64,000 bases of DNA. Source: Terriglobales bacterium. GTDB taxonomy: Bacteria > Acidobacteriota > Terriglobia > Terriglobales > Acidobacteriaceae. The position numbers and the translations under genes were made by a program. Below, one piece after another: positions 644 through 17,969 of this stretch. The first letter of the stretch is position 1. The number at the start of each line of letters is the position of its first letter. The stretch lies in contig JAICSO010000017.1 in NCBI GenBank assembly GCA_025936825.1, positions 1-64,000 of the forward strand, given 5' to 3'. The notes under the pieces were generated by a model that was not told the DNA's origin, did no database searches, and saw only the letters and a program-made list of their open reading frames with translations.

Positions 644-911
644 CCTTCAGCCATCAGCCATCAGTAAAACGGATCTTGGGGAAGCGGAAATGCTGAAAGC
701 TGATTTGAACCAGTCCCGCAGGGACGAAAGATAAATAGCCCAGGACGTAAGTCCTGGGTAGGTAAAGAAAAAAATCAGAGTCCCATTAGGGACGGCAGAA
801 AAGCAGGTCCCTCGACTGCGCTTCTGATTCGCAGGCGAATCAGAATGCTTGCTCGGAATGACAGGTTTCTGGATTTTGAGCTGAGGGCTAAAAGCTAATA
901 GCTGAGAGCTG
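644..911 (+). repeat. Heptamer-repeat arms flanking a REP block (rpsJ-rplC gap)
   Basis: The left arm (644-664) is built from CAGCCAT units and starts directly after the rpsJ stop. The right arm (878-911) is built from AGCTNNN units and ends 5 nt before rplC. The arms are only partly complementary because the dialects differ. A mosaic REP block sits between them. Confidence 0.75.
711..871 (+). repeat. Mosaic REP-like block, copy 2
   Basis: The order is AGTCCCGCAGGGAC, AGCCCAGGAC...GTCCTGGGT, AGTCCCATTAGGGACGGCAGA, then a GCAGGTCCCTCG...CGGAATGACA unit whose middle carries an extra hairpin (CTGATTCGC AGGC GAATCAG, near 823-844). The last three units match the order of the block at 81-208. Confidence 0.75.
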
Positions 912-916
912 AATTT

Positions 917-1648
917 ATGGCAAAAGTAGCAGGAATTCTGGGGAAAAAAGTCGGGATGACGCAACTCTTCGATTCGAAGGGCGACGTGCGTCCAGCGACG
1001 GTGCTGCAGGCGGGCCCATGTGTGGTCACGCAACACAAGTCGCAGACGAAAGACGGCTACGATGCCGCGCAGATCGGCCTAGTCGAGTTCGTGAAGGAGT
1101 CGCGCCTGACGCAGCCCATGAAGGGGCACCTGGGCAAGAACAATCTGCCTCCGGTGAAATTCATGCGCGAAGTTCCCATCGAGATTGAAGAAGGTTCAGA
1201 GGGCAACGGCGCGGTGAAGGCTGGAGACCGCGTGCTGGTCGATATCTTCGACGGCGAGAAGTTTGTGGACATCGTCGGCATCAGCAAGGGCAAAGGCTTC
1301 CAGGGTGTGGTGAAGCGCCATCATTTTGGCGGCGGCCCGAAGTCGCACGGCTCGATGTTTCAGATCACGGGTTCCATCGGTTCTTCCGCATTTCCGTCGC
1401 GCGTGTTCAAAGGCATGCGGATGTCCGGACACATGGGCAATGCTCGGGTGACCACGCGCAACCTACGCGTGCTGGGCGTCGATAAAGACGACAACCTCCT
1501 CGTGGTTGAAGGCAGCGTGCCCGGCCCTAACGGTGGATACCTGGTGATCACGAAAGCGAAGAAGCCGCCGAGAGAGCGGCGCGGATTCGCCGGTTCGGCA
1601 ACTGTCGATCCGTTGAAGGCTGCGAAGAGAGCGGCGAAGAAGGGCTAG
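917..1648 (+). CDS. rplC: 50S ribosomal protein L3
   Basis: L3 binds near the 3' end of 23S rRNA and nucleates 50S assembly. The 243-residue product begins [18 protein letters not shown] and carries the GGGPKSHGS and [20 protein letters not shown] signatures around residues 137-170. It is some 30 residues longer than E. coli L3, partly through a lysine/arginine-rich tail. The ATG has no strong Shine-Dalgarno; the last upstream heptamer (GAGCTGA) occupies that position. Confidence 0.97.
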
Positions 1649-1674
1649 TGGTTAGTGGCCAGTGGTTAGTGGCC
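1649..1674 (+). repeat. Heptamer-repeat arm, GTGGTTA dialect
   Basis: GTGGTTA, GTGGCCA, GTGGTTA and GTGGCC follow one another with an exact 7-nt period directly after the rplC stop. No partner arm is present in the 39-bp gap. Confidence 0.7.
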
Positions 1675-1687
1675 TGAGAAAACGAAC

Positions 1688-2413
1688 ATGGCAACTATCG
1701 ACATTCATGATTTGAGCGGCAAGGCGGTTGGCTCGCTGGAACTGGCCGACGAGGTCTTTGGCGCGATCAACGAAGCCCTGCTCTGGGAAGCGGTGAAGCA
1801 CTACCGCGCCGGGCAGCGCGCCGGCACGCACGCTACTAAGAACCGCTGGAAGGTTTCGGGATCGGGCAAGAAGCTATGGAAGCAGAAGGGCACTGGACGC
1901 GCGCGCATTGGTTCCATTCGTTCGCCACTGTGGCGTCATGGCGCGACCGTGCATGGACCGCAACCGCGCTCGTACGCGTATGACTTCCCGCGCAAGAAGC
2001 TCTTGGGTGCGTTGCGCTCGGCGCTGGCCGCAAAATTTTCTGATGGCAAGCTGATCGTTGTGAACGCATTCGACGTGAAGGAAGCGAAGACGAAGGCTTT
2101 CCGCGAGGCGCTCGACAACCTGAAGGTTGATAAGACCGCGTTGCTGGTTGAAGTTGCGAATCACGGCAACAACGACCTAGTCCTGAGTTCACGGAACTTG
2201 GATGGCGTGGAACTGATCGCGAGCAGCGAAGTACATCCGTATCACCTGCTGCGTTATGACCGCGCGATCTTCACGCAGCCCGCGATTGAGAAGCTGCAGG
2301 CGTCATTGAAGAAGTCGTCATCGAGCAAGTCGCGCCAGGCCAACGAAGCTGAGCAAAAGCCGGCGAAGAAGGCGACGCGCAGCCGCAGCAAGAAAACGGC
2401 GGAGGTGGCGTAA
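1688..2413 (+). CDS. rplD: 50S ribosomal protein L4
   Basis: L4 lines the polypeptide exit tunnel and in enterobacteria also represses its own operon. The 241-residue product contains the tunnel-loop signature THATKNRWKVSGSGKKLWKQKGTGRAR near residues 47-75 and RSPLWRHGATVHGPQPR after it. An Ala/Lys/Ser-rich basic tail of about 30 residues (from roughly residue 205) extends beyond the usual end. The stop codon abuts the rplW start, suggesting translational coupling. Confidence 0.97.
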   Translation: MATIDIHDLSGKAVGSLELADEVFGAINEALLWEAVKHYRAGQRAGTHATKNRWKVSGSGKKLWKQKGTGRARIGSIRSPLWRHGATVHGPQPRSYAYDFPRKKLLGALRSALAAKFSDGKLIVVNAFDVKEAKTKAFREALDNLKVDKTALLVEVANHGNNDLVLSSRNLDGVELIASSEVHPYHLLRYDRAIFTQPAIEKLQASLKKSSSSKSRQANEAEQKPAKKATRSRSKKTAEVA

Positions 2414-2707
2414 ATGAAGTCGGCATATCAGATCATCCGCCGGCCGGTGATTACCGAGAAGGGTCTCGGGATCAAGGAAAACCAGAACACGCTGGTGTTC
2501 CAGGTTGCGCCAAAGGCGACGAAGACCGAGATCAAAGAAGCTGTGCAGACAATCTTCAAAGTGAAGGTCAGTTCAGTGCGCACGGCAAATTATCCGGGAA
2601 AAGAGCGGCGGCGCGGCAAGTTTGCCGGCTACCGTGCGGACTGGAAGAAGGCATACGTAAAACTGCGCTCCGGCGAGAAGATGCCGGAATACGCGCAGAA
2701 TCTGTAG
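2414..2707 (+). CDS. rplW: 50S ribosomal protein L23
   Basis: L23 sits at the exit-tunnel rim, where trigger factor and SRP dock in other bacteria. The 97-residue product begins MKSAYQIIRRPVITEKG and has the VFQVAPKATKTEIKEAVQTIF core. Length is normal. Its ATG follows the rplD stop with no spacing, so expression is probably coupled. Confidence 0.97.
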   Translation: MKSAYQIIRRPVITEKGLGIKENQNTLVFQVAPKATKTEIKEAVQTIFKVKVSSVRTANYPGKERRRGKFAGYRADWKKAYVKLRSGEKMPEYAQNL

Positions 2708-2710
2708 TTG

Positions 2711-2785
2711 AGCGTCGTCCGTCGCACGTCGTGCGCAAAACCGTGCGACGCCTGACGTGGGACGTGCGACAGAAGCTAAGAGCTG
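2711..2785 (+). repeat. Heptamer-repeat hairpin, CGTCGCA dialect
   Basis: The left arm (2711-2736) has CGTCGTC and CGTCGCA-type units. The right arm (2741-2770) has the complementary GTGCGAC, GACGTGG and GACGTGC units. A short AGCTAAG/AGCTGAT tail of another dialect follows immediately before the rplB start. Confidence 0.7.
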
Positions 2786-2791
2786 ATTTTT

Positions 2792-3613
2792 ATGGCAATC
2801 AAGACTTACAGACCGACAACGCAGACGCTTCGCTATCGGACCACGCTGTCGAGCGCGGACCTGACTACGAATCGTCCGCATAAGCCGCTGGTGGAGCGGA
2901 AGTACAAGAGTGGCGGGCGCCGCAACTCGGGCGACCTTACCATGCGGTTCATCGGTGGCGGGCACAAGCAGAAGCTGCGCACCATAGATTTCAAGCGCGA
3001 GAAGCTGGGCATTCCCGCAACCGTGGTTTCGATCGAGTACGATCCCAACCGCTCGTCGCGTATCGCTCTGGTCGCGTACGCCGATGGCGAGAAGCGTTAC
3101 ATTATCCAGCCGGATGGATTGAAGGTTGGACAGAAGATTGTTAGCGGTCCCGACGCCGACATCCTGGTTGGAAACGCACTGCCCTTGAAGAACATTCCTC
3201 CAGGCACGACGATTCACAACCTGGAGCTGCGTCCTGGAAAAGGCGCCCAGATGGTTCGTTCCGCGGGTGGCGCTGCACAGTTGGTAGCGAAGGAAGGCGA
3301 GTACGCGCTGGTGAAATTGCCTTCCGGCGAGACCCGCAAAGTGTCGCAGGATTGCATGGCGACGATCGGGCAGGTCGGCAACATCGACCACGAAAACGTC
3401 ACCATCGGCAAGGCGGGACGTACGCGCTGGATGGGCAAGAAGCCGCACAACCGTGGTGTTTCGATGAACCCGGTTGACCATCCGCACGGCGGTGGTGAAG
3501 GCAAGACCTCAGGCGGGCGTCATCCGGTCACGCCGTGGGGCCAGCCAACGCGTGGTTACAAGACGCGCAACAACAAGCGGACGGATAAGTTCATTGTGAG
3601 TCGCGCGAAGTAG
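2792..3613 (+). CDS. rplB: 50S ribosomal protein L2
   Basis: L2 is needed for subunit joining and lies near the peptidyl-transferase centre. The 273-residue product has the normal family length. It begins [17 protein letters not shown] and carries the diagnostic signature [18 protein letters not shown] near residues 215-235, including the conserved histidine. The start is ATG, preceded by an AGCTGATTTTT heptamer tail instead of a purine-rich Shine-Dalgarno. Confidence 0.98.
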
Positions 3614-3730
3614 TCGCACGTCGTGAGTCGTACGTTGTGCGGAAAAGCAGGTTCCTCACCGCTGAAGCGGTTCGGAATAACAGAGTTTTGGTTTTTAAGC
3701 TAGAAGCTAGGAGCTAACAGCTAGAAGCTG
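3614..3730 (+). repeat. Heptamer arms of two dialects around a REP unit (rplB-rpsS gap)
   Basis: The left arm (3614-3642) uses GTCGCAC/GTCGTGA/GTCGTAC units. The right arm (3697-3730) uses AGCTAGA/AGCTAGG/AGCTAAC units and is not its complement. A GGTTCCTCACCGCT...CGGAATAACA REP unit (3645-3683) lies between them. Mismatched arms suggest past shuffling. Confidence 0.7.
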
Positions 3731-3737
3731 GTTTTTT

Positions 3738-4094
3738 ATGGCACGTTCAACAAAAAAAGGCCCGTTCATTGACGGATATCTGGCCACGCGAATCGAGCAG
3801 ATGAATTCGCGCAACGAGAAGAAGGTGTTGCGCACCTGGTCGCGCCGGTCGACCATTATCCCGGAGATGGTGGGACACACCATCGCGGTTCACAACGGAA
3901 AAAAGTTTATTCCGGTGTACGTCACCGAGAACATGGTGGGACACAAGCTGGGCGAGTTCAGCTTCACGCGCCAGTTCAAAGGCCACTCGATGAAGGCGGC
4001 GACCGAAGCGGCGGCGCGTCCGGCGGGCGTGCCTGGCGGTCCGGGAGCTCCGGCTCCGGCGGCGGGTGCGGCTCCGGCAGCACCGAAGGCATAA
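3738..4094 (+). CDS. rpsS: 30S ribosomal protein S19 with Ala/Pro/Gly-rich tail
   Basis: S19 contacts 16S rRNA in the 30S head with S13. The first 93 or so residues are a standard S19: [15 protein letters not shown], then [46 protein letters not shown], abbreviated here by its ends TWSRRS and HKLGEF. Beyond residue 93 runs an Ala/Pro/Gly-rich tail of about 25 residues, likely disordered. The rplV start lies 4 nt after its stop. Confidence 0.97.
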
Positions 4095-4098
4095 CGAC

Positions 4099-4575
4099 AT
4101 GGAATTTCGAGCACAAACCAAATTCGTTCGCGTCTCACCGCAGAAAGCGCGGCTGGTGCTGAACCTGATCAAGGGACGGCGCGTGGAAGATGCACTCAAC
4201 ACGCTGGCTTTCACGAAGAAGCGCATCGCCGGCAAAGTCGAGAAGCTGCTCCGGTCGGCGGTTGAGAACGCCAACTACATGAGCACAGAAAAGAATGTCG
4301 ATGTCGATCTCGACAACTTGTACGTGAAGCATGCGGTTGCGAACGACGGACCGCGTATGAAGCGCATTCGGCCGGCGCCAATGGGCCGTGCCTATCGCTA
4401 CGTTCGGCGCATTGCGCACATTGAAATCGCCCTGGCGGAGCGTGGCAAGAATGGGGCTGGAGATCTGGCGACGGTGGTCGGCGAAGAGAAAGCCGCAGCG
4501 CCAGCACCAGCGAAGAAAAAGCGCGCAGTTGCGAAGAAGAAATCGGTTGGGAAGAAGGCCGTAGCTAAGAAGTGA
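4099..4575 (+). CDS. rplV: 50S ribosomal protein L22 with lysine-rich tail
   Basis: L22 lines the exit tunnel with L4. The start at 4099 (MEFRAQTKFVRVSPQK) is preferred over the in-frame ATG at 4066, which would overlap rpsS. The 158-residue product has the L22 core to about residue 112 (GRAYRYVRRIAHIEI). An Ala/Lys-rich tail of about 45 residues follows, as seen in several bacterial phyla. It sits immediately behind rpsS. Confidence 0.96.
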   Translation: MEFRAQTKFVRVSPQKARLVLNLIKGRRVEDALNTLAFTKKRIAGKVEKLLRSAVENANYMSTEKNVDVDLDNLYVKHAVANDGPRMKRIRPAPMGRAYRYVRRIAHIEIALAERGKNGAGDLATVVGEEKAAAPAPAKKKRAVAKKKSVGKKAVAKK

Positions 4576-4590
4576 TTAGGTGTCTAGTAA

Positions 4591-4668
4591 AAGCAGGTTC
4601 CTCACCGCTGAAGCGGTTCGGAATGACAAGGGTTTAACTCACAACTAGCAACTAGCCACTAGCAACTG
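4591..4668 (+). repeat. REP unit plus heptamer arm (rplV-rpsC gap)
   Basis: A GCAGGTTCCTCACCGCT...CGGAATGACA REP unit (4591-4628) is followed by a heptamer arm ACTAGCA/ACTAGCC/ACTAGCA/ACTG (4645-4668). Only a remnant (GTCTAGT, 4581-4587) of a possible left arm is seen before the REP unit. Confidence 0.7.
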
Positions 4669-4683
4669 CAGTTCAGGAGCTTT

Positions 4684-5346
4684 ATGGGACAGAAGGTACA
4701 TCCTTACGGATTCCGGCTCGGATACACGAAGCCGTGGAAGTCGCGCTGGTTTGTCGAACGGGACTACGACAAGCTGCTGCTCGAAGACGTCAAGCTGAAG
4801 GCCGAGCTGAAGGATAAGCTCAAGTCGGCAGGCGTTAGCTCCATCGAGATTGAGCGTCCGGGCAACAAGCTGCGCGTCATCATCAAGACCGCGCGCCCCG
4901 GAATCATCATCGGCCGCAAAGGCGCCGAGATCGACAAGCTCAAGGGCGAAGTGCAGAAGCGCACGAACCGTGAGGTGTACATCGACATCCAGGAAGTGCA
5001 CAAGCCCGAGCTGGATGCACAGCTGGTGTCGGAGTCGATCGCGCTGCAACTTGAAAAGCGCGTAGGCTTCCGGCGCGCTATGCGCAAGGCTGTTGATTCG
5101 GCGCTGCGCTTCGGATGCAAGGGTATTAAGGTTCGCGTGAGCGGACGCCTGAACGGAAACGAAATCGCGCGGTCCGAGTGGTATCTGCAGGGACGTTTGC
5201 CGCTACACACTCTGCGTGCGGATATCGAGTACGGCTTCACTGAAGCGCGCACCACCTACGGCGTGATCGGCGTAAAGTGCTGGATTTATCGTGGCGAAAT
5301 CCTACCCACGAAGAAGCGCGAGTCGCAGGCGGTAGGAGCGTTTTAA
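4684..5346 (+). CDS. rpsC: 30S ribosomal protein S3
   Basis: S3 forms part of the mRNA entry channel. The 220-residue product begins [16 protein letters not shown]-type RNA-binding motif [15 protein letters not shown] lies around residues 70-84, and the C-terminal domain contains [20 protein letters not shown]. Length is normal. A TTCAGGAG-type Shine-Dalgarno (4673-4680) precedes the ATG, one of few clear ones in this operon. Confidence 0.98.
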
Positions 5347-5348
5347 TC

Positions 5349-5504
5349 GGGTGATTGGGCGATCGGGCGATCTGAAGAAAGTCGCACGTCGTGAGTCGCA
5401 GGTCGCACGCAAGAAATACGATGTGCAAATTTGGCGTGCGACGGACGACGTGAGACACACGACGAGGTTTTGACTAAGAGCTAAAGGCTAGAAGCTAAGA
5501 GCTG
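5349..5504 (+). repeat. Multi-dialect heptamer hairpin (rpsC-rplP gap)
   Basis: In order: GGCGATC-type units (5349-5372), a GTCGCAC-type left arm (5381-5409), its GTGCGAC/GACGACG-type right arm (5434-5465), and an AGCTAAA/AGCTAAG arm (5474-5504) ending 6 nt before the rplP start. All units share the 7-nt period. Confidence 0.75.
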
Positions 5505-5510
5505 AACTTT

Positions 5511-5927
5511 ATGTTGATGCCGAAAAAAGTTAAGTACCGCAAGCAGCAGCGCGGGCGCATGACCGGGAAGGCGTGGGCTGGCAGCACGCTGTCTTTCGGA
5601 GATTACGGGCTGAAGGTCCTCGAGCCAGGTTGGATCACCGACCGGCAAATCGAGGCCAGCCGCGTCGCGATGACCCGGTTCATCAAGCGCGGGGGAAAGA
5701 TTTGGATCCGTTTGTTTCCGGACAAGCCAGTGACCAAGAAGCCGGCCGAAACTCGTATGGGTAAAGGCAAAGGCGCGCCGGACCACTGGGTCGCAGTCGT
5801 GAAGCCGGGCAAGATTTTGTTCGAAATGGAAGGCGTGACGCCGCAGGACGCGGCAGAAGCAATGCGGCTGGCGTCGCACAAGCTGCCATTGCGCACGACG
5901 TTTGTGCAGCGCGAGACAGCGCACTAA
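5511..5927 (+). CDS. rplP: 50S ribosomal protein L16
   Basis: L16 helps position the A-site tRNA on the 50S subunit. The 138-residue product starts [17 protein letters not shown] and contains the WGRIGA-like region as [18 protein letters not shown] plus [17 protein letters not shown], both diagnostic. An alternative ATG lies two codons in at 5517. Length is normal. rpmC follows after 18 bp. Confidence 0.97.
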
Positions 5928-5945
5928 GAAGCTGAGAGCTTATTT

Positions 5946-6149
5946 ATGGAAGCAGAAAAAATCAGAAACCTGACCGACGAAGAACTTCGGCATCAGGAAC
6001 GCGAGATGAGCGACGAGCTGTTCAAGCTCAAGTTTCAGCTCAACATGGGCCAGACCGAGAGCCTGAAGAAGCTGCGCGGCCTGCGTAAGGACATCGCGCG
6101 GATCAAGACCATCGCCCGCGAGCGCGCGGCTGCAGGGGAGAAGAAGTAA
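5946..6149 (+). CDS. rpmC: 50S ribosomal protein L29
   Basis: L29 is a small helical protein next to L23 at the tunnel exit. The 67-residue product has the two-helix pattern [13 protein letters not shown] and [20 protein letters not shown]-like ends, matching the family in length and order. Its stop overlaps the rpsQ start by one base (TAATG), so the two are probably coupled. Confidence 0.96.
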
Positions 6150-6448
6150 TGGCGGAAACACAAGCTGCCGGACGCCGCAAAGAGCTGATCGGCCACGTAG
6201 TTTCGAACCGGATGAACAAGACGATTGTCGTCCAGGTGATTCGCAAAAGGGCCCACCCGCTCTACATCAGGGTGATTTCGAAGGCGAAGAAGTTCTATGC
6301 GCACGACGAGAAGAACGAGGCCCACATCGGTGATGTGGTGAAGCTCGAAGAGACGCGCCCGCTTTCGAAGCTGAAGCGATGGAAGCTGAAAGAGATTATT
6401 CGCAAGACGGCGCTGGTGCCGGAAGTGGCGGCAGAGCCGAAGGCATAG
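6149..6448 (+). CDS. rpsQ: 30S ribosomal protein S17
   Basis: S17 is an OB-fold primary 16S rRNA-binding protein. The 99-residue product shows [16 protein letters not shown] near residues 15-30, [10 protein letters not shown] and [18 protein letters not shown], all family hallmarks. A short C-terminal extension is present. It overlaps rpmC by one base. Confidence 0.97.
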
Positions 6449-6484
6449 CCGGCTCGCAGCAAATTGTTCCGCGAGGGATGACTT

Positions 6485-6856
6485 ATGACAGTGATGATGC
6501 GAAGCATGCTCGAGGTCGCTGACAACAGCGGCGCACGCAAGCTGCAGATGATTCTGCCGCTGGGCGGCGCAACGGGTCTGCGAGCAGGTCTGGGCGACGT
6601 AGTGACGGCCAGCGTGAAGGAAGCCGCGCCCGACGGTCAGGTCCAGAAGGGCAAAGTTGTGAAGGCGGTTATCGTGCGTACGCGCAAAGAGCATCGCCGC
6701 CGCGACGGTACTTATATTCGCTTTGATCAGAACGCGGCAGTGCTGATCAACGATGCTGGCGAGCCGGTTGGAACACGCGTCTTTGGCCCGGTTGCCCGCG
6801 AACTGCGCGAAAAGAAGTTTTTGAAGATTGTGAGCTTGGCACCGGAAGTTCTGTAG
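6485..6856 (+). CDS. rplN: 50S ribosomal protein L14
   Basis: L14 forms intersubunit bridges. The 123-residue product has the expected length. It reads [19 protein letters not shown] near the start and [25 protein letters not shown] near the end, both standard L14. An alternative ATG lies four codons in. A GAGGGATGA-type Shine-Dalgarno (6472-6480) precedes the start. Confidence 0.97.
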
Positions 6857-6873
6857 AGAAAAGGGATTTGGTA

Positions 6874-7218: not shown

Positions 7219-7268
7219 TCGACTCACGAACCGGTAGCCACTCCGAAACCGTGAGAATGGATTGAGAA

Positions 7269-7892: not shown

Positions 7893-7897
7893 ATTTT

Positions 7898-7931
7898 GAG
7901 CTAAAAGCTAAGAGCTAAAGGCTAGGAGCTG
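7898..7931 (+). repeat. Heptamer-repeat arm, AGCTAAA dialect
   Basis: AGCTAAA, AGCTAAG, AGCTAAA, GGCTAGG and AGCTG follow one another in exact 7-nt phase, filling the whole gap between the rplE stop and the rpsZ TTG start. Only the right-arm (purine-rich) type is present. Confidence 0.75.
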
Positions 7932-7935
7932 ATTT

Positions 7936-8151: not shown

Positions 8152-8154
8152 AAA

Positions 8155-8230
8155 CCGTCGTCGGTTGTTAGCTGTCGGTCGTCGGCCAAGCGCAAATCGC
8201 GAACGACGAACGACTAAGGACGAACGACGG
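8155..8230 (+). repeat. Heptamer-repeat hairpin, CGTCGGT dialect
   Basis: The left arm is 8155-8185 and the right arm 8200-8230. By eye 21 of 31 positions are complementary in the paired register, with mismatches falling mostly in adjacent pairs. The loop is 14 nt. Both arms show the 7-nt period. Confidence 0.8.
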
Positions 8231-8743: not shown

Positions 8744-8823
8744 AGCCGTTAGCCGTCAGCCGTCAGCCATCAGGAAGAGCTGACGTGGTTTTGCTGAAGG
8801 CTAAGGGCTGAAGGCTGAAGGCT
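8744..8823 (+). repeat. Heptamer-repeat hairpin, AGCCGTC dialect
   Basis: The left arm (8744-8773) reads AGCCGTT/AGCCGTC/AGCCGTC/AGCCATC. The right arm (8794-8823) reads CTGAAGG/CTAAGGG/CTGAAGG/CTGAAGG. By eye 24 of 30 positions pair. The right arm ends 2 nt before the rplF ATG, so GAAGG within it is the only Shine-Dalgarno candidate. Confidence 0.85.
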
Positions 8824-9366: not shown

Positions 9367-9475
9367 GCTGTTGGTTCTTGGCTGTTGGTTGTTGGCCAAG
9401 ACCGTTGTTGCAAGCCGAATCCGTTGGCGAGGGATGTTGGTTTTGCCAACAACCAAGAGCCAACAACCAAGAGCT
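9367..9475 (+). repeat. Heptamer-repeat hairpin, GTTGTTG dialect
   Basis: The left arm (9367-9400) reads GCTGTTG/GTTCTTG/GCTGTTG/GTTGTTG. The right arm (9445-9475) reads CCAACAA/CCAAGAG/CCAACAA/CCAAGAG. Complementarity is near complete over about 29 nt, enclosing a 44-nt centre. It ends 5 nt before rplR. Confidence 0.85.
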
Positions 9476-9848: not shown

Positions 9849-9920
9849 CAGTGAGCGGCGAGTAGTGAGCCGCGAGCGAACTTAAGATCGCTCACCGCTC
9901 ATAGCTCAAAGCTCGGAGCT
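9849..9920 (+). repeat. Heptamer-repeat hairpin, GTGAGCG dialect
   Basis: The left arm (9849-9879) reads GTGAGCG/GCGAGTA/GTGAGCC/GCGAGCG. The right arm (9888-9920) reads CGCTCAC/CGCTCAT/AGCTCAA/AGCTCGG. The arms pair imperfectly across an 8-nt loop, ending 8 nt before rpsE. Confidence 0.8.
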
Positions 9921-9928
9921 AGGAAATT

Positions 9929-10641: not shown

Positions 10642-10645
10642 CTCT

Positions 10646-10715
10646 CAGCCATCAGCCATCAGCCATCAGGAAAACCTGAACAAGCTGACGGCTGAGGGCT
10701 GACGGCTGAAGGCTG
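10646..10715 (+). repeat. Heptamer-repeat hairpin, AGCCATC dialect
   Basis: The left arm (10646-10669) is three perfect AGCCATC-type units. The right arm (10684-10715) reads GCTGACG/GCTGAGG/GCTGACG/GCTGAAG. They enclose 14 nt, and the right arm ends 5 nt before the rplO ATG. Confidence 0.85.
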
Positions 10716-10720
10716 GTTTT

Positions 10721-11158: not shown

Positions 11159-11161
11159 TGA

Positions 11162-11240
11162 GCTGTGCGCAGCGAGCAATGAGCGGCGAGCGACATGCTG
11201 AGCTGATCGCTCAAAGCTCAGCGCTCGATGCTCGCTGCCG
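11162..11240 (+). repeat. Heptamer-repeat hairpin, GCGAGCA dialect
   Basis: CAGCGAG/CAATGAG/CGGCGAG units (from 11171) are followed by GCTCAAA/GCTCAGC/GCTCGAT/GCTCGCT units, the complementary type. The gap lies between rplO and secY. Confidence 0.75.
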
Positions 11241-11248
11241 AGGTTTTT

Positions 11249-12637: not shown

Positions 12638-12643
12638 GAAGAT

Positions 12644-12702
12644 GTCAGTAGCTAGCTAAACCAGGTTTTGCTAACAACTGCCTACTAGCAACTGGCTACT
12701 GA
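12644..12702 (+). repeat. Degenerate heptamer arms (secY-adk gap)
   Basis: A left arm CAGTAGCTAGCTA (from 12646) and a right arm CTACTAGCAACTGGCTACTG (12682-12701) are partly complementary and keep a 7-nt period. This is one of the most eroded copies. Confidence 0.55.
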
Positions 12703-12734
12703 ATTGGGGAGCGGTCGGGAGACCGAAGTACGAT

Positions 12735-13493
12735 GTGTCAGTAATTTTGGGTCAGGAGCAGGTTGGGGCCAGGTCGGTGGAGCAGACACTGCGAAACATC
12801 GGACCCGTTGTGCTGCTCGGGCCTCCAGGCGCAGGCAAGGGCACGCAATCCAAGCGGATTACGCAGCACTACCGGATTCCGCAGGTTTCGACGGGCGACT
12901 TGCTCCGTGAGCACGTCAAGCAGGGAACGCCGCTGGGAGTGCAGGTTCGGGACCTGATCGCCAGGGGCGAGTTGGTTTCCGATCACCTGGTTTGTGACAT
13001 TGTCGCCTGGCGCCTTCGCGAAACGGATGCGCAGCGCGGGTTCATCCTCGATGGGTTTCCGCGCACGGCAAAGCAGGCAGTTTGGCTGGACTCGTTCCTG
13101 AAGTTCGAGTTTGGCGATACGGGTAAATGGGCGGCATGGCTGCCAATTGTGGTCTGTATCAAGGTGGATTATAATAAGTTGTTGCTCCGGATTACTGGAC
13201 GCAGGACTTGTCCCACCTGTGGGCGGATCTACAACGTCCATTCCCAGCCGCCGCTTGTTGATGAAATCTGTGATGTTGACGGCTCCAAGCTGGTCACCCG
13301 TGATGATGACCGCGAGGAAGTCATACGGGAGCGCCTTGACGCCTATGAGCGTCAGACCAAGCCGGTAGCAGAGCACTATGGCAGGCTAGGTCGCGTGGTG
13401 GAGGTCAATGGCGACCTTCCCGTGGATGAAGTGACGGCCAGCCTGATCGAAGCGATTGATCAAGGCGCCCACGGAGCAGCAGGGAGTAGTTAG
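12735..13493 (+). CDS. adk: Adenylate kinase
   Basis: The enzyme interconverts AMP plus ATP and two ADP. Walker A GPPGAGKGTQS is near residues 29-39, STGDLLREHV and GFPRTAKQA follow in family order. The LID carries a zinc-type CPTCG...CDVDG set. The listed GTG start gives 252 residues with an unusual 22-residue stretch before the nucleotide fold, so the true start could be further in. It sits between secY and map, the usual place. Confidence 0.94.
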   Translation: MSVILGQEQVGARSVEQTLRNIGPVVLLGPPGAGKGTQSKRITQHYRIPQVSTGDLLREHVKQGTPLGVQVRDLIARGELVSDHLVCDIVAWRLRETDAQRGFILDGFPRTAKQAVWLDSFLKFEFGDTGKWAAWLPIVVCIKVDYNKLLLRITGRRTCPTCGRIYNVHSQPPLVDEICDVDGSKLVTRDDDREEVIRERLDAYERQTKPVAEHYGRLGRVVEVNGDLPVDEVTASLIEAIDQGAHGAAGSS

Positions 13494-13496
13494 CGA

Positions 13497-14246
13497 ATGG
13501 TGGTCTGCAAGTCGCAGTCGGAACTCGACAAAATGCGGCGCAGTGGCCACATCGTGCGTCAGGTGCTCGATGAGCTTCGCGCGATGGTCGCGCCGGGCAT
13601 TAGCACGATGGACCTGGAAAAGCTGGCAGAGCGCCGGATCAAAGAATCCGGAGCGAAGCCAGCGTTCAAGGGATACTACGGTTATCCGTGTGTGCTGTGC
13701 ACGTCGATTAACGACGAGATCGTGCATGGGATTCCCTCTGCGAAGCGAGTTTTGAAGACGGGCGATATTGTTTCGATCGACTGCGGCGTGGTGCTTGATG
13801 GTTATTACGGAGACGCGGCGATCACAGTAGCAGTGGGCGATTTGGTTTCGCCCGAGCGCAAAAAGCTGATGGAAGTGACCGAGCAGTCGCTGTACAAGGC
13901 GATTGAGAAGGTCAAGATCGGAAACACGATCAGCGACATTGGCGGCGCCGTTCAAGAGTTTGTGGAAGCCGCCGGCTTCAGCGTGGTTCGCGAGTTTGTG
14001 GGTCACGGCATCGGGACCAAGCTGCACGAAGAGCCGCAGGTCCCGAATTTTCGTTCGCGCGGCGCTGATATGCGGTTGCGCGAAGGTATGGTGCTCGCGA
14101 TCGAGCCGATGGTGAACACCGGAGGCCCGGAAGCGCGAGTGCTGGAAGATAAGTGGACTGCGGTGACGTTGGACGGCAGTTCCAGCGCGCATTTCGAGCA
14201 TTGCGTGGCAGTGACGAGAAATGGGCCGTTGATTTTGACGCAGTAG
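13497..14246 (+). CDS. map: Methionine aminopeptidase type I
   Basis: This cytosolic dimetal enzyme removes the initiator methionine. The 249-residue product shows all five expected metal ligands: Asp in VSIDCGV, Asp in YYGDAA, His in GHGIGTKLHE, Glu in AIEPMV and Glu in FEHCVAV. Length is normal. The ATG lies 3 nt after the adk stop, so the pair is probably cotranscribed and coupled. Confidence 0.97.
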   Translation: MVVCKSQSELDKMRRSGHIVRQVLDELRAMVAPGISTMDLEKLAERRIKESGAKPAFKGYYGYPCVLCTSINDEIVHGIPSAKRVLKTGDIVSIDCGVVLDGYYGDAAITVAVGDLVSPERKKLMEVTEQSLYKAIEKVKIGNTISDIGGAVQEFVEAAGFSVVREFVGHGIGTKLHEEPQVPNFRSRGADMRLREGMVLAIEPMVNTGGPEARVLEDKWTAVTLDGSSSAHFEHCVAVTRNGPLILTQ

Positions 14247-14254
14247 AAGCTGCG

Positions 14255-14318
14255 AGCCTTTAGCTCTTAGCTTTTAGCCAAATCGTGACTTGGTTCAAGC
14301 TAAAGGCTAAGAGCTGAG
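14255..14318 (+). repeat. Heptamer-repeat hairpin, AGCTTTT dialect
   Basis: The left arm (14255-14279) reads AGCCTTT/AGCTCTT/AGCTTTT/AGCC. The right arm (14298-14318) reads AGCTAAA/GGCTAAG/AGCTGAG. They pair well over about 20 nt. The right arm ends 4 nt before the truncated infA copy. Confidence 0.8.
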
Positions 14319-14322
14319 GTGC

Positions 14323-14391
14323 ATGAGCAAAGAAGACGTGATTGAAGTTGAGGCGTCTAGCGGGCGTCTGAGACCGCTGCCGAAATCCTGA
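14323..14391 (+). pseudogene. Truncated duplicate of the infA 5' end
   Basis: A 22-codon frame reads MSKEDVIEVEASSGRLRPLPKS. It aligns with the start of the real infA about 110 bp downstream ([20 protein letters not shown]): the first nine residues differ at one position, and a shared PLP follows. The stop TGA lies inside TCCTGAGCGAAGCGAAGGATC, an inverted REP-like unit, which suggests the copy was cut by repeat insertion or recombination. A functional leader peptide is possible but less likely. Confidence 0.7.
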
Positions 14392-14407
14392 GCGAAGCGA
14401 AGGATCT
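14386..14407 (-). repeat. REP-like unit, inverted copy
   Basis: On the minus strand this reads GATCCTTCGCTTCGCTCAGG, the core of the GGTCCTTCG...AGGATGACA family seen at 8231 and 25896. It is the only inverted copy noticed. It terminates the infA-like fragment. Confidence 0.65.
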
Positions 14408-14430
14408 GTTGGACGGGTAAATAGGAGCTA

Positions 14431-14649
14431 ATGAGTAAGGAAGACGCGATCGAAGTGATGGCAACGGTCGTCGAACCGCTGCCCAACGCCATGTTCAAGG
14501 TGGAACTGGAAAACAAGCACCAGGTGCTGGCGCACGTTTCCGGGAAAATGCGCAAGAATTTCATTCGCATTCTTCCGGGAGACAAAGTCGCAGTCGAGCT
14601 CTCGCCGTACGATCTGAATCGCGGAAGAATTGTTTACCGCTACAAATGA
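14431..14649 (+). CDS. infA: Translation initiation factor IF-1
   Basis: IF-1 is an S1/OB-fold factor that occupies the 30S A site during initiation. The 72-residue product begins [19 protein letters not shown] and ends [15 protein letters not shown], full length for the family. TAGGAG (14421-14426) before the ATG is a good Shine-Dalgarno. It lies between map and rpmJ, the conserved position, and directly after a truncated duplicate of its own 5' end. Confidence 0.97.
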
Positions 14650-14655
14650 CGCCTC

Positions 14656-14705
14656 GCGTCAGCCAGGGCTTCCCTGATGGCTGACGGCTGATGGCTGAAG
14701 GCTGG
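14656..14705 (+). repeat. Heptamer-repeat hairpin before rpmJ
   Basis: A short left arm (GCGTCAGCCAGGGC, 14656-14669) is followed by GATGGCT/GACGGCT/GATGGCT/GAAGGCT units (14676-14703). The GAAGG of the last unit sits at Shine-Dalgarno distance from the rpmJ start. Confidence 0.7.
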
Positions 14706-14708
14706 GTT

Positions 14709-14822
14709 ATGAAGGTTCGAGCATCGGTTAAGAAAATTTGCGACAAGTGCAAGATCATCCATCGCAAGGGTGTGGTGCGCGTGATCTGCACAAATACGAA
14801 ACATAAACAGCGGCAAGGATAG
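14709..14822 (+). CDS. rpmJ: 50S ribosomal protein L36
   Basis: The 37-residue product reads [20 protein letters not shown] and continues with [10 protein letters not shown], then a basic end. The zinc ligands C11 and C14 and the later C27 and H32 are at the usual spacing. This is the zinc-containing (C+) form. The gene is too short for many ORF finders. It sits between infA and rpsM as in most bacteria. Confidence 0.95.
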
Positions 14823-14828
14823 CAGCAA

Positions 14829-14886
14829 GCCGTGAGCGGCGAGCTGCGAGCAAATACAAGTCGCTCGGAGCTCGAAGCTCACAGCT
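14829..14886 (+). repeat. Heptamer-repeat hairpin, GTGAGCG dialect (rpmJ-rpsM gap)
   Basis: A left arm CCGTGAGCGGCGAGCTGCGAGC (14830-14851, split as CGTGAGC/GGCGAGC/TGCGAGC) faces a right arm GCTCGGA/GCTCGAA/GCTCACA (14863-14883). Confidence 0.75.
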
Positions 14887-14902
14887 TTAGCAAGAACGGG
14901 AG

Positions 14903-14956
14903 GGCACGACTTCAGTCGTGCCTCTCGAGAAAAATCAACGAGCGGCTTTAGCCGCT
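14903..14956 (+). repeat. Two perfect short hairpins (REP-like)
   Basis: GGCACGAC TTCA GTCGTGCC (14903-14922) is a perfect 8-bp stem with a 4-nt loop. AGCGGC TTTA GCCGCT (14941-14956) is a perfect 6-bp stem. Neither is followed by a U-tract. They precede rpsM by 13 nt. Confidence 0.7.
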
Positions 14957-14969
14957 GAGGTCAGGATTT

Positions 14970-15356
14970 ATGGCACGTATCGCAGGCGTCGATCTTCCGC
15001 GGAACAAGCGGTCGTTTATCGCGCTCACTTACATTTACGGGATCGGCGTTTCGCGCGCGACCCGCATCCTCGAAGAAGCCAACGTGGATCCCATGAAGAA
15101 GATCCAGGATCTGGGCGAGGAAGAGGTCAACCGCATTCGCCAGGTTATCGAAGGCGAAGGCTTAGTTGAGGGCGACCTGCGCAAGGAAATTTCGATGAGC
15201 ATCAAGCGGCTCATCGAAATCGGCTCCTATCGCGGAAACCGCCATCGCCGCAACCTGCCGGTCCGAGGACAGCGCACTCATACGAACGCGCGCACCCGCA
15301 AAGGCCCGCGTAAAGGTACTGTCGCGAATAAGAAGAAGGCGGCGGCAAAGACATAA
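14970..15356 (+). CDS. rpsM: 30S ribosomal protein S13
   Basis: S13 forms head-to-50S bridges and contacts P-site tRNA. The 128-residue product begins [20 protein letters not shown], has [14 protein letters not shown], and ends with the basic [21 protein letters not shown]-type signature plus a lysine tail. It begins the alpha-operon part of the cluster. A GGTCAGGATTT stretch lies before the ATG. Confidence 0.97.
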
Positions 15357-15360
15357 CCAC

Positions 15361-15459
15361 GTCGCCGGTCGTTGGTCGTCGGTCGTTGGCCAACACCGGT
15401 GCTGCAAGAGCAAGTGGTGTTGCGAACGACGAACGACGAACGACCAACGACTAAGGACC
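15361..15459 (+). repeat. Heptamer-repeat hairpin, CGGTCGT dialect
   Basis: The left arm (15361-15391) reads CGGTCGT/TGGTCGT/CGGTCGT/TGGCC. The right arm (15424-15459) reads GAACGAC/GAACGAC/GAACGAC/CAACGAC/TAAGGAC. The enclosed centre is about 32 nt. The right arm ends 3 nt before the rpsK ATG. Confidence 0.85.
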
Positions 15460-15462
15460 AAA

Positions 15463-15900
15463 ATGGCTAAACCAGCAGCAGCAGCGGGCGGCGCAGCAGC
15501 CGCACCGGAGAAGAAGGGCAAGAAGAAAACCTTCAAGAAGAAGGAACGCAAGCACGTCTCGTTTGGCGTCGTGCACATTCAGGCGTCCTTCAACAACACG
15601 ATCGTCACGATCTCCGACCAGGCCGGAAACGTCCTGTCGTGGAAGAGTTCGGGGTCGCTTGGATTCCGCGGATCGCGTAAAGGTACGCCATTCGCCGCGC
15701 AGCAGGCGGCCAGCAACGCCGCCAACATGGCGCGCGATCACGGTGTGCGCAGCGTGGAAGTGCGCGTGAGCGGGCCGGGATCGGGCCGTGAGTCGGCAAT
15801 CCGTGCGCTGCAGGCCGCAGGCATCGAAGTTCGCGCCATCAAGGACGTCACGCCGATTCCGCACAACGGGTGCAGGCCGCCAAAGAGACGCAGAGTGTAG
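15463..15900 (+). CDS. rpsK: 30S ribosomal protein S11
   Basis: S11 contacts the E-site mRNA on the 30S platform. The 145-residue product has [39 protein letters not shown] and the C-terminal [18 protein letters not shown], all diagnostic. An Ala/Gly/Lys-rich N-terminal extension of about 25 residues precedes the domain. Confidence 0.97.
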
Positions 15901-15971
15901 TTTCCAGTTTCCAGTTTCGAGTTTCAACTTCGGTGGTTGCGCGAAACTTGAAACTATGAAACTCGAAACTG
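15901..15971 (+). repeat. Heptamer-repeat hairpin, AGTTTCC dialect
   Basis: The left arm (15901-15928) reads AGTTTCC/AGTTTCG/AGTTTCA. The right arm (15942-15971) reads GAAACTT/GAAACTA/TGAAACT/CGAAACT. Pairing is extensive. The same dialect is used in the next two gaps. Confidence 0.8.
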
Positions 15972-16031
15972 ATTTTCAACCGGGAAGAAGGGAAGCCAAT
16001 CCTGTAAACCGGTTTCAATAAGGAGAGAAAC

Positions 16032-16661
16032 TTGGCACGTTACAAAGATGCAGTTTGTCGTCTATGCCGCCGCGAGGGCATGAAGCTGTTCCTCAAGGGG
16101 CCAAAGTGTTTTACCGATAAGTGTCCCGTCGAGAAGCGCAACTTCGCGCCCGGCCAGCATGGAAAAGATCGCAAGGCCAAGGTTGTGGGTTACGGCCTGC
16201 AACTGCGCGAGAAGCAGAAAGCCAAGCGCATCTACTTCACCCAGGAAGGCCAGTTCCGCAACTATTTCGAGAAGGCCGCGCGCTCGAAAGGCGTGACCGG
16301 CGAAATCCTCTTGCAGCAGCTTGAGCGGCGCCTCGATACCGTGGTTTACCGCATTGGCTTGGGAGTGTCGCGCCGTCAGGCCCGCCAGTTGGTTCGTCAC
16401 GGGCATGTTGCCGTCAATGGACGCAAGGTGAATATCCCTTCGTTCCAGACCAGCGTTGGCGACGAGATCACGATCCGCGAAGCCAGCCGCAAGCTGCCGA
16501 TCCTCGAGCAGGCGAAGGAATTCGCTGCGCACGGAACGTCGCCCACGTGGCTGGAGATCGATCGCGACAACTATCGCGGGAAAGTGCTGGCATTGCCCAA
16601 GCGCGAAGACATTCAGCTGCCGGTGAATGAGCAGTTGATTGTGGAACTTTACAGCAAATAG
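16032..16661 (+). CDS. rpsD: 30S ribosomal protein S4, zinc-type
   Basis: S4 is a primary 16S rRNA binder and regulates the alpha operon in several bacteria. The start is TTG at 16032, supported by AAGGAGAG (16020-16027) at good spacing. The 209-residue product has [18 protein letters not shown] near residues 9-26 plus a later Cys, a zinc-type N-terminus, and the S4 RNA-binding domain [20 protein letters not shown] (about residues 98-117). Confidence 0.96.
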
Positions 16662-16750
16662 TTTCGAGTTTCAGGTTTCAAGTTTCGAGTGTGTCTTGCT
16701 GTTGTCACACCAGGAGCACTGGAAACTCTGAAACTGGAAACTTGAAACTG
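16661..16750 (+). repeat. Heptamer-repeat hairpin, GTTTCGA dialect
   Basis: The left arm (16661-16690) reads GTTTCGA/GTTTCAG/GTTTCAA/GTTTCGA. The right arm (16721-16750) reads GAAACTC/TGAAACT/GGAAACT/TGAAACT. A 30-nt centre containing TGTTGTCACA separates them. Confidence 0.8.
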
Positions 16751-16787
16751 ATTTTTCCGGTCCACTTTTCGTGCCAGATCAGCCTTT

Positions 16788-16826
16788 CGCGGCTGTGACC
16801 TGAGTCGGACCACTCAGAGAGCCGCG
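16788..16826 (+). promoter_or_regulatory. Nested stem-loop upstream of rpoA
   Basis: CGCGGCT (16788-16794) pairs with AGCCGCG (16820-16826). Inside it CTGAGT (16800-16805) pairs with ACTCAG (16812-16817) across a 6-nt loop. The element ends 29 nt before rpoA and has no U-tract. It is unlike the heptamer hairpins. It could be a protein-binding site, for example for S4; that is inference. Confidence 0.5.
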
Positions 16827-16855
16827 ATTGAGCCATATGGCCGAAGGAGAAACAA

Positions 16856-17890
16856 ATGCTTTGGAAGGGTTTTCAAAAACCAAAACGTCTCGCAGTTGAC
16901 ACCTCAACCCTCACCGACAAGTACGGAATTTTCTGGGCGCAGCCGTTTGAACGCGGCTTCGGCACCACCATCGGTAACGCGCTTCGCCGCGTACTACTGA
17001 GTTCCATCGAAGGCGCCGCGGTCACCGCAGTGAAGATTGATGGCGTGCTGCACGAGTTTCAGTCCATCCCTGGCGTGGTCGAGGACGCGACCGACATCAT
17101 CCTCAACCTGAAACAGATTCCATTCAAGCTCAGCGGCGACGCGCCGAAGGCCATTTACCTGCGCTCGGACCAGCCCGGTGTCGTCACCTCGGGCATGATC
17201 GAAGCCGACGCTGATGTCGAAGTGCTCGACAAGGACGTTTACATCGCGACCGTCAGCGAAGGTGGACGCCTCGACATGGAAATGCGTTTAAAACGCGGCC
17301 GTGGCTACGTTTCCGCGGACAAGAATTTCGACGAGGACCTCGGCATTGGATTCATTCCGATTGATTCGGTCCACTCGCCGGTTCGCAAGTGCAATTACAC
17401 GGTGGAAGCGGCGCGTCTGGGACAGATCACGGATTACGACAAGCTTACGCTGGAAGTCTGGACGAATGGCTCGATCATCCCCGCCGACGCCATCGGCCTC
17501 GCGGCGAAGTTGCTGAAGGACCACATGAACATCTTCATCAACTTCGAAGAGGACATCGAAACCGGCACCACGACGGAAGACCGCAAGCCCGAGATCAAGA
17601 ATGAGAACTTGAACCGGTCGGTCGAGGAGCTCGAGCTTTCGGTGCGCAGCTACAACTGCTTGAAGAACGCGAACATTCAGACCATCGGCGAGCTGGTGCA
17701 GAAGACTGAAGCCGAGATGCTGAAGACGAAGAATTTTGGCCGCAAGTCGCTGAACGAGATTAAAGAAATTCTGGGCACCATGGGTCTGAGCCTGGGCATG
17801 AAGATCGACGAGCACGGCAATGCCGTACCCGGCCCGACTTCGAACCAGGTGCTGCCCGCGTCAGCGTACGGCCCGGACGATAACTACTAG
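16856..17890 (+). CDS. rpoA: RNA polymerase alpha subunit
   Basis: The alpha dimer scaffolds RNA polymerase, and its C-terminal domain binds UP elements and activators. The 344-residue product has the N-terminal assembly domain ([20 protein letters not shown], then [21 protein letters not shown] by its ends RGFGTT and LSSIEG). The alpha-CTD lies at about residues 255-320 ([19 protein letters not shown], then [12 protein letters not shown]). GAAGGAG (16842-16848) is a strong Shine-Dalgarno. Confidence 0.98.
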
Positions 17891-17894
17891 AAAG

Positions 17895-17969
17895 CAGTTT
17901 CGGGTTTCGAGTTTCGAGCAATAACGTTGTAGCTCAGACTTGAAACTCGAAACTTGAAACTTGAAACTG
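17895..17969 (+). repeat. Heptamer-repeat hairpin, GTTTCGA dialect (rpoA-rplQ gap)
   Basis: The left arm (17895-17919) reads CAGTTTC/GGGTTTC/GAGTTTC/GAGC. The right arm (17938-17969) reads ACTTGAA/ACTCGAA/ACTTGAA/ACTTGAA/ACT. The right arm ends 8 nt before rplQ. Confidence 0.8.

Follow-up and report, generated by a model that had tools for sequence, protein, structure and literature searches.

Tandem heptamer arms of intergenic hairpins in an acidobacterial ribosomal gene cluster and their replacement among relatives

Heptamer repeats occur in scattered bacteria and have so far been explained only by a guess at polymerase slippage. In the trnL (tRNA-Leu UAA) group I intron of Nostoc and Calothrix, the P6b region carries 7-nt repeats of Class I (TDNGATT) or Class II (NNTGAGT), and indels of 7 nt affect one side of the stem or both (PMC4476775). 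In Geobacter metallireducens, multicopy "global regulator binding sites" of classes 1-3 are composed of octamers GTTGCTYN or heptamers MTYCTGA (PMC2700814), and direct repeats of the heptamer TAACTGA are reported from Beggiatoaceae, cyanobacteria and Bacteroidetes (PMC4679880). Here we analyse heptamer arrays in the window, a whole stretch of 64,000 nucleotides (positions 1 to 64,000 of the forward strand of contig JAICSO010000017.1, assembly GCA_025936825.1) from a Terriglobales bacterium of the Acidobacteriota, which is opened by the ribosomal S10-spc-alpha cluster. A sequence-only reading of it had held that nearly every gap of at least 25 bp in this cluster contains tandem degenerate heptamers, mostly as two complementary arms, whose sequence (the word) differs from gap to gap under a constant period.

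The explanation we favour, with a probability of about 0.5, is that the hairpins belong to families of palindromic extragenic DNA elements of about 80 bp, with heptamer or octamer arms, which are gained, lost and replaced as units. Direct observations concern the unit period, the pairing of the arms, their joint replacement at individual gaps, the arms and loop motif of one word in four gaps, and the presence of such arrays elsewhere in the phylum. The arrays are dense, paired and word-switching, and they can be compared gap by gap over about 100 related clusters; as the conserved genes on either side serve as a clock, the source of the 7-nt unit, the mobility of the hairpins and any effects they have on operon expression become directly testable.

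The gap set of the window consists of the 22 intergenic gaps of at least 25 bp below position 18000 (3279 bp in all), with gene boundaries set from codon usage. Identity at lag 7 in these gaps was 0.388, against 0.253 in 500 dinucleotide shuffles (sd 0.008, maximum 0.273, z 17.0), while lags 5, 6, 8 and 9 lay at or below background (z -3.5, -0.3, -0.1 and -2.7); lags 14 and 21 were raised as well (0.362 and 0.301), and coding DNA gave 0.246 at lag 7. A heptamer tract, that is, a periodic array with a score of at least 8 unless stated otherwise, was found in 18 of the 22 gaps (20 at a score of at least 7), and tracts at lags 6, 8 and 9 in 0, 1 and 0 gaps, respectively; two short gaps, 6449-6484 and 7219-7268, have no heptamer tract. 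In the rest of the window, outside the ribosomal cluster, 5 of 27 gaps qualify. The near-universal presence of heptamers in the cluster gaps and the excess of lag 7 over lags 6 and 8, as the sequence-only reading had it, are thereby confirmed.

Hairpins with a score of at least 12 (termed strong) are present in 12 of these gaps and with a score of at least 10 in 16, which agrees with the predominance of two arms claimed earlier, except that several gaps carry a single array. The pairing of 8744-8773 with 8794-8823, counted by hand as 24 of 30 positions, was exact, and the nearly full pairing of 9367-9400 with 9445-9475 amounts to 29 of 34. RNA folding of 13 stretches gave z values between +0.6 and -9.1: gaps 8742, 9366, 9847, 10642, 15357 and 17891 at -4.5 to -9.1, gaps 2708 and 3614 at about -2.6, 5386-5471 at -1.8, 7219 at -1.4, 11159 at -1.0, 6449 at +0.2, and 14661-14720, a stretch not positioned on the arms, at +0.6.

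The relatives were represented by the cluster from 36 genomes and 80 records titled as metagenome-assembled genomes (e.g., Acidobacteriaceae bacteria, Candidatus Sulfotelmatobacter); after merging of 7 duplicates among 117 cluster loci, 110 clusters, including that of the window, provided 1690 orthologous co-directional gaps. Tracts of period 7 occurred in 606 of these gaps and of period 8 in 135, and each of the periods 3-6 and 9-13 in 4 to 20 (12 at period 6, 20 at period 9). Period 7 is thus dominant, period 8 is a true minority, and other periods are near background, so that, contrary to what had been supposed, the period is not always 7. Among the 1681 gaps of up to 300 bp (9 of the 1690 are longer), strong hairpins were found in 505, against 6 per shuffle set, and in 441 of 722 periodic gaps against 64 of 959 non-periodic ones. 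The median element is 79 bp long with an arm of 29 nt; the period count is over the 381 elements less 16 whose arms are short. Presence of the trait is patchy among relatives: the in-family median share of gaps with it is 0.51, it is missing from 8 of the 89 clusters in which 8 or more gaps were scored (four of the 8 lie outside the family), and two genomes of the same genus, G005 and G006, have none (G000 being the window's genome, and other G and L numbers denoting other genomes and cluster loci).

At orthologous gaps the words differ among genomes. In the L18-S5 gap the word is GAGCNNN in the window, TAATTGGG (8) in G001 and G003, CTAGCTN in G002, TTAGCTN in G004 and G007, and TCAGCTN in G013; in the S13-S11 gap about nine different words, counted by eye, are found across genomes. 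Within a genome the arms pair with a score of about 19, against 8-9 for the first arm of one genome and the second arm of another at L6 identity of 0.80-0.95, and 6-7 below it. From one genome to another, the similarity of the first arms correlates with that of the second at 0.81-0.91 over identity bins; both arms change together, mostly by whole replacement, since at flank identity of at least 0.92 (pairs with 300-nt flanks of at least 0.6 identity being compared) 15 of 20 orthologous hairpin pairs were clearly different and 4 had the same word. The same-word fraction was 0.16-0.28 in all bins with at least 15 pairs, down to 0.68 flank identity, and this flat course indicates that the turnover is already saturated at 5-8% divergence of the coding flanks. 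An example is provided by L112 and L104, whose aligned flanks are 0.89-0.99 identical (some low values in this comparison stem solely from a start codon set differently); several of their gaps have wholly different words, and L30-L15 has the same word. The notion of a shared period and placement without shared sequence is upheld.

Where both gap and genome differ, words are shared less often (about 0.04-0.08) than at the same gap, which indicates that each gap prefers some words. Within a genome, gaps up to 20 genes apart share words at 0.12-0.19 against 0.06-0.08 expected (1.8-2.6 times), and gaps more than 20 genes apart at 0.03 against 0.04 (ratio 0.70, 67 pairs). Local spread along the operon was rejected as a source of this sharing because there is no decay up to 20 genes. 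Import of words via recombination tracts was rejected as well: the nearest 60 positions of the flanks are no less identical than far ones in bins with more than 3 switched pairs, and slightly less identical in the top two bins only (1 and 3 pairs).

Copying of whole elements is indicated by the loops (14-45 nt in pairwise scoring, 12-45 nt in the loop-motif test). For same-word loops from different gaps and genomes a score of at least 8 was reached in 7.8% of 1063 pairs, against 1.5% in shuffled loops and 2.5% of 438 sampled different-word pairs, and the best pairs represent one family, AGCTATC AGCTNTC AGCCGTC AGCTATC AG - AAARGCGRCGG - (GCTGANA)n. Seventeen elements were chosen by this loop motif and 15 aligned, so that the shared loop among them proves nothing by itself. 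When the GCTGA word was instead defined by the 3' arm only (53 elements), 19 of 53 loops had GCG[AG]C: 9/9 in L23-L2, 4/12 in S8-L6, 3/4 in L16-L29 and 3/3 in L18-S5. Among elements with other words the motif is in 7/130 loops, and in shuffled loops its frequency is 4.7%, 13.2% at the most. As the selection was made on the arms only, we conclude that at least a part of the GCTGA word is one element present in four gaps. The earlier claim that the hairpins are not copies of one element is thus too strong, since words recur across gaps and genomes and the GCTGA word has its loop motif in four gaps, as copies would; but as most same-word loops of different gaps differ, copying is shown for a minority of elements. 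From the 15 aligned elements a covariance model was built, which matched in 20 of 41 genomes and 39 times in the window's genome; these counts were obtained with stricter filters and a short calibration, often include a palindrome on both strands, and cover the same word with other loops.

The arms of a word also have a fixed handedness. A 5-mer model trained on half of the genomes and applied to the other half, both ways, placed 380 of 381 5' arms and 379 of 381 3' arms correctly, and CTGA is located in the 3' arm in 407 cases to 6 in the clusters. A palindromic unit copied whole keeps its own handedness, which is why this regularity fits element families. The reverse arrangement, with the CTGA core in the 5' arm, was seen in 5/5 regions of G039 and one of two regions of G101, and on these grounds a universal, telomere-like inward T-rich polarity was dropped; the 5' arm is T-rich in 308 of 381 cluster elements, and the few genome-wide elements of G013 are divided 8 to 8.

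In some gaps the arrays are not a simple pair. Arms of different words stand together in 42 of 346 two-array gaps, 34 of the 42 in the usual order of 5' type followed by 3' type. Unpaired single arrays closer to the stop codon are of 5' type in 80 cases to 31, and those closer to the start codon are of 3' type in 78 to 5. At 5347-5510 of the window a GTCGCAC hairpin is enclosed by an orphan GATCGGG array and an orphan AGCT array. Mixed gaps and orphan arrays are read as remnants of older elements; the start-proximal units perhaps serve as ribosome-binding sequence.

Outside the ribosomal cluster, 400 kb of G013 contain 277 gaps, 53 of them with period-7/8 tracts (20 for four control periods together); for 320 kb of the window's genome the figures are 24 of 165, and 17 for the controls. 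Tracts combined with a hairpin of at least 12 numbered 25 in G013, 12 in these 320 kb and 5 in small contigs from the window's genome (a further 200 kb). Such low counts show the trait to be sparse outside the ribosomal cluster. By gap type, tracts in the three sets occupy 54/341 co-directional, 21/94 convergent and 12/106 divergent gaps (p 0.055 for the difference between convergent and divergent gaps, and 0.008 when the small contigs are set aside). Of 199 genomes of the phylum, 62 carry four-unit CTGANNN arrays, the highest count in a genome being 1739 overlapping matches; the reversed control pattern is a heptamer array itself and matches there too. The same core in 41 relatives has period 7 in 20, period 8 in 4 and period 6 in 3. 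Heptamer-armed hairpins with arms of 29-58 nt were found in 13 short regions of six other genomes, chosen for opposite-strand matches lying close together. G089 and G101, elsewhere in the phylum, have more than 1000 overlapping CTGANNN array matches each, and G025 (L222-L224), from a sister family, is rich in CTGANNNN arrays of period 8, which often stand alone, and gives neither a Y1 nor an RVT_1 match.

Several observations weigh against the view of mobile palindromic units. Within genomes, elements of one word in different gaps mostly have dissimilar loops (score 4.89, shuffled loops 4.51), and GCG[AG]C is absent from the GCTGA-word loops of eight other gaps (0/25). An intact hairpin with a further outer array was seen in 7 of 381 cases only, there are six candidate empty-site pairs in all, and some of these look like deletions that leave a start-proximal unit. 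In the L24-L5 gap of L113, L104 and G013, the arms stand 34-74 nt apart and the 3' arm splits a conserved RNA-like hairpin, which a single insertion does not explain. The small contigs mentioned above have tracts in 10 of 99 gaps against 7 for the controls, hardly an excess. Direct repeats flanking the 381 elements, whose ends are fuzzy, are at chance level, thus giving no target-site duplication; no transposase was seen beside elements, and many of the 23 Y1 transposase genes looked at have other palindromes next to them.

In the window itself, Pfam matches confirm ten proteins (S10, SecY, Adk, peptidase M24, IF-1, S13, S11, S4, RpoA and L17). Peptidase M24 is taken as methionine aminopeptidase (MetAP), and the remaining cluster proteins (L3 to L15, S14) are named from gene order. 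The probable start of S4 is a TTG codon at 16032, in whose frame the Pfam match sets in at residue 3. The arrays and hairpins are as follows.

646..913, + strand: S10-L3 gap, 5' arm of CAGCCATC type and 3' arm of AGCT type at the gap ends, other repeats too; hairpin 11, tract 12.8.
1649..1672, + strand: L3-L4 gap, single AGTGGTT/AGTGGCC array; tract 8.2, hairpin 5.
2714..2770, + strand: L23-L2 gap, GTCGCAC-type hairpin, then AGCT-type units at the start codon; score 12, fold z -2.7.
3697..3729, + strand: single AGCTAGA array by the S19 start codon; tract 15.0, hairpin 8.
4636..4667, + strand: single ACTAGCA array by the S3 start codon; tract 16.2, hairpin 7.
5347..5503, + strand: three strata, an orphan 5' GATCGGG array, a nested GTCGCAC hairpin (arms 5381-5404 and 5433-5456) and an orphan 3' AGCT array.
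7899..7924, + strand: single AGCTAAA array after L5; tract 12.4, hairpin 5.
8155..8230, + strand: GTCGTCG/ACGAACG hairpin before S8; score 12.
8744..8823, + strand: S8-L6 gap, CAGCCGT/GCTGAAG hairpin; score 19, z -6.2; match of the TCAGCTN-word model at 8742-8822, E 1.1e-9.
9367..9474, + strand: L6-L18 gap, GTTGGTT/CCAACAA hairpin; score 25, z -9.1.
9853..9914, + strand: L18-S5 gap, GAGCNNN/GCTCANN hairpin; score 11, z -4.5.
10645..10709, + strand: L30-L15 gap, CAGCCAT/GCTGACG hairpin; score 19, z -5.7; match of the TCAGCTN-word model at 10638-10713, E 1.8e-9.
11173..11227, + strand: L15-SecY gap, GAGC-type hairpin; score 11, z -1.0 (weak).
14262..14315, + strand: MetAP-IF1 gap (genes by Pfam), TTAGCTN hairpin; score 15.
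14827..14887, + strand: GAGCNNN hairpin upstream of S13; score 17.
15361..15451, + strand: S13-S11 gap, GTCGTTG/AACGACG hairpin; score 18, z -6.3.
15912..15971, + strand: S11-S4 gap, GTTTCNA hairpin; score 15.
16667..16749, + strand: S4-RpoA gap, GTTTCNA hairpin; score 16.
17895..17969, + strand: RpoA-L17 gap, GTTTCNA hairpin; score 18, z -5.7.

Other sequences share these gaps. A different dispersed repeat, GGTTCCTCACCGCTGAAGCGGTTCGGAATGACA, with variants, lies inside several of them (by eye at about 3648-3682, 4597-4628 and 8239-8273) and also in relatives. A hairpin TCACGAACCGGTAGCC..CCGAAACCGTGAG at 7223-7255, before L5, is conserved in many relatives, has no Rfam match and is possibly a site of ribosomal protein autoregulation. 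Conserved blocks, delimited by eye at about 15977-16014 (upstream of S4) and 16770-16849 (upstream of RpoA), stay in place while the adjoining heptamer hairpins change. The Rfam scan of window positions 1-20000 had RF01687 (Acido-Lenti-1) as its sole match above the gathering score, at 82-127 and 712-758 on the minus strand, off the arrays. In 20 Y1-gene loci from three genomes (109 kb) the same family has 14 matches, which lie in 7 of the loci (L186, L188, L191, L194, L199, L200 and L201), and a single contig from the window's genome gave no match over 140 kb; its copies flank the Y1 gene on both sides in L186, L188, L191 and L200. RF01687 may be a repeat of the repetitive extragenic palindromic (REP) type moved by a Y1 transposase and not a small RNA.

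As to the matching of the arms, most of the pairing arises because both arms are built of the same word: same-word elements from different places pair at 17.0-18.3 across, against 19.8 within elements, the latter value being inflated by hairpin selection. Closely matched orthologous hairpins (122 overlapping pairs) contain 30 double changes against 6.4 expected, though variable positions of the heptamers that lie opposite one another may account for some of the surplus; 16 of the 30 restore a proper pair, where a third is expected by chance. Structural RNAs favour G-U pairs. Among all arm mismatches, in 12418 positions, G-U and A-C numbered 602 and 560, a near-zero G-U preference, and among one-sided changes 77 and 69; the tRNA comparison gave 5 and 3 in 98 pairs with badly placed ends and is of no use as a positive control. 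The lack of a G-U preference favours DNA-level copying between the arms over selection on RNA pairing, and the latter is not supported.

According to the reading we favour, each word (or dialect) would be a family or be derived from one, having arms of about 29 nt made of a tandem degenerate 7-mer, sometimes an 8-mer, and the elements would arrive, leave and replace one another as units in tolerant gaps. The 7-nt unit may have come from replication slippage, and the arms would be kept matched by copying from one to the other at the DNA level through intrastrand template switching, not by selection on RNA; any influence they have on translation or mRNA would be incidental or a use acquired later. 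A wider formulation, which we put forward tentatively and as the less probable one, is that of a process rewriting the genome, in which a chosen intergenic slot retains its hairpin while both arms are exchanged for another word. The result would be a class of propagating DNA that occurs in scattered acidobacterial lineages, and perhaps also in Geobacter, cyanobacteria and Beggiatoaceae, and is defined not by sequence but by architecture (palindromic, with a 7/8-nt period and arms of about 4 units each).

The strongest of the rival explanations, possible if rather doubtful, dispenses with a mobile element: the hairpins would be made in place, repeatedly, by slippage of a polymerase with a 7-nt preference, combined with template switching at the fork, by which the inverted arm would be written. 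Heptamers are reported to be the commonest long simple repeats in bacteria, with slippage proposed as the cause (PMC4679880 and PMC4692102, on Mrazek 2007), and the mostly gap-specific loops, the arms that can flank a part of the host sequence, as in L24-L5, and the matched double changes without G-U bias are all in line with such an origin. It leaves unexplained, however, the loop motif shared by four gaps, the fixed handedness of each word and the word preference within genomes (up to 20 genes apart; none beyond, 67 pairs). Nor is there a local seed in the outgroups: a model in which the word is copied from the local ribosome-binding sequence was rejected, as element-free outgroups scored 4.46 at the same gap against 4.42 at other gaps; element-free in-family genomes scored 5.01 against 4.70.

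That the hairpins are selected as intercistronic mRNA stems, which would tune the translation, coupling or decay of messages from operons with high expression and for which any foldable sequence would suffice, we regard as unlikely. It would account for the strong predicted RNA stems in a part of the gaps, for the 3'-arm type of the start-proximal unpaired arrays (78 to 5), for the fact that a gap often keeps a hairpin despite the turnover of its sequence, and for the ribosomal enrichment: at matched gap length (60-130 bp), arrays are found in 9/10 ribosomal gaps against 9/53 elsewhere in G000 and 10/12 against 20/67 in G013, and they also occupy 6/12 gaps, five of them consecutive, in the nuo region and 6/17 in the atp region. 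Yet no excess of G-U pairs was detected (602 to 560 and 77 to 69), RNA selection needs no 7- or 8-nt period, and a hairpin with an array is at least as common in convergent as in co-directional gaps (6/51 against 17/169 in G013, 3/24 against 8/110 in G000). The 8 of 89 clusters that lack the trait, four of them outside the family, likewise speak against it.

Paired sites for DNA-bending or global regulators appear quite improbable. The same architecture, tandem hepta- or octamer pairs on opposite strands at variable distance, is so interpreted in G. metallireducens (PMC2700814), and the handedness of each word is fixed within clusters, but about nine words (by eye) at the one orthologous S13-S11 site speak against it. 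We know of no regulator that follows such word changes.

Still less probable is mobilization of REP-like repeats by a Y1 transposase (of the REP-associated tyrosine transposase, RAYT, type). The number of Y1 genes follows that of CTGANNN arrays in 41 genomes (Spearman 0.58, p 8e-5, phylogeny not corrected), and both are missing from G005 and G006. Y1 elements are not known to leave a target duplication, and none was seen here. Only one of 23 genes (7 loci of G000, 8 genes of G013 and 8 of 12 matches in G004) has a period-7/8 tract of at least 8 within 220 bp, however, and that apparently in coding sequence; 17 of 25 array-poor genomes carry Y1, and G025, without a Y1 match, has 88 array matches and 31 model hits. 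Y1 transposase was rejected as a requirement on account of G025 and of the single gene with a tract nearby.

Telomerase-like reverse transcription adding repeats at breaks, in the manner of DRT10, an existing enzyme that makes tandem-repeat DNA (PMC12632851), is hardly credible in spite of the 7-8 nt unit and the T-rich 5' arms (308/381), given the lack of an RVT_1 match in the array-bearing G001, G004, G008, G011, G014, G015, G025 and G039 (some of these genomes being incomplete), the reversed handedness in G039 and one G101 region and the absence of T skew in the G013 genome-wide elements (8 to 8). A reverse transcriptase was rejected as a requirement, since RVT_1 does not track the arrays.

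No paper describing such hairpins in Acidobacteria was found in open-licence PubMed Central. The cyanobacterial repeats named STRR are grouped here with the GGGAATC-type heptamers discussed below. The statement that no named family has these properties holds only in part, because Nostoc P6b with its two interchangeable classes (PMC4476775) and the G. metallireducens sites (PMC2700814) share them on a smaller scale. A miniature inverted-repeat transposable element of DDE type differs in its target-site duplication, not seen among our 381 elements with fuzzy ends. REP/RAYT systems likewise consist of dispersed extragenic palindromes, but these measure 20-40 bp (PMC3733652), whereas the elements here have a median of 79 bp, heptamer-array arms and positions not beside Y1 genes. 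The GGGAATC-type heptamers of Xanthomonas and Nostoc form intergenic arrays that vary in length and sequence among close relatives and include some inverted repeats, yet they are mostly single-word and G-rich, and word switching is not described in the part of the source used (PMC4692102). The TAACTGA repeats place CTGANNN just before start codons, including some in ribosomal operons, in the orientation of the 3' arms here; they differ in being one word in direct repeats, with one inverted case, for which their author predicted no RNA structure in the account drawn on (PMC4679880). The G. metallireducens sites have tandem 7/8-mers in inverted pairs at variable distance, as here, but belong to few fixed classes with 8 to 24 pairs each, are read by their authors as protein sites, and come, in the portion consulted, without a description of orthologous turnover (PMC2700814). 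Nostoc P6b is a hairpin at a fixed site with stem arms of complementary tandem 7-mers, in which the whole region has repeatedly been replaced by the other class among relatives at the orthologous site (PMC4476775). It differs in being one intron site with two classes, while the elements described here are intergenic, occupy many gaps and other genome regions, use a dozen or so words (by eye) and include period 8. On balance, the closest known system in behaviour is Nostoc P6b (PMC4476775), and the closest in anatomy are the paired arrays of G. metallireducens (PMC2700814).

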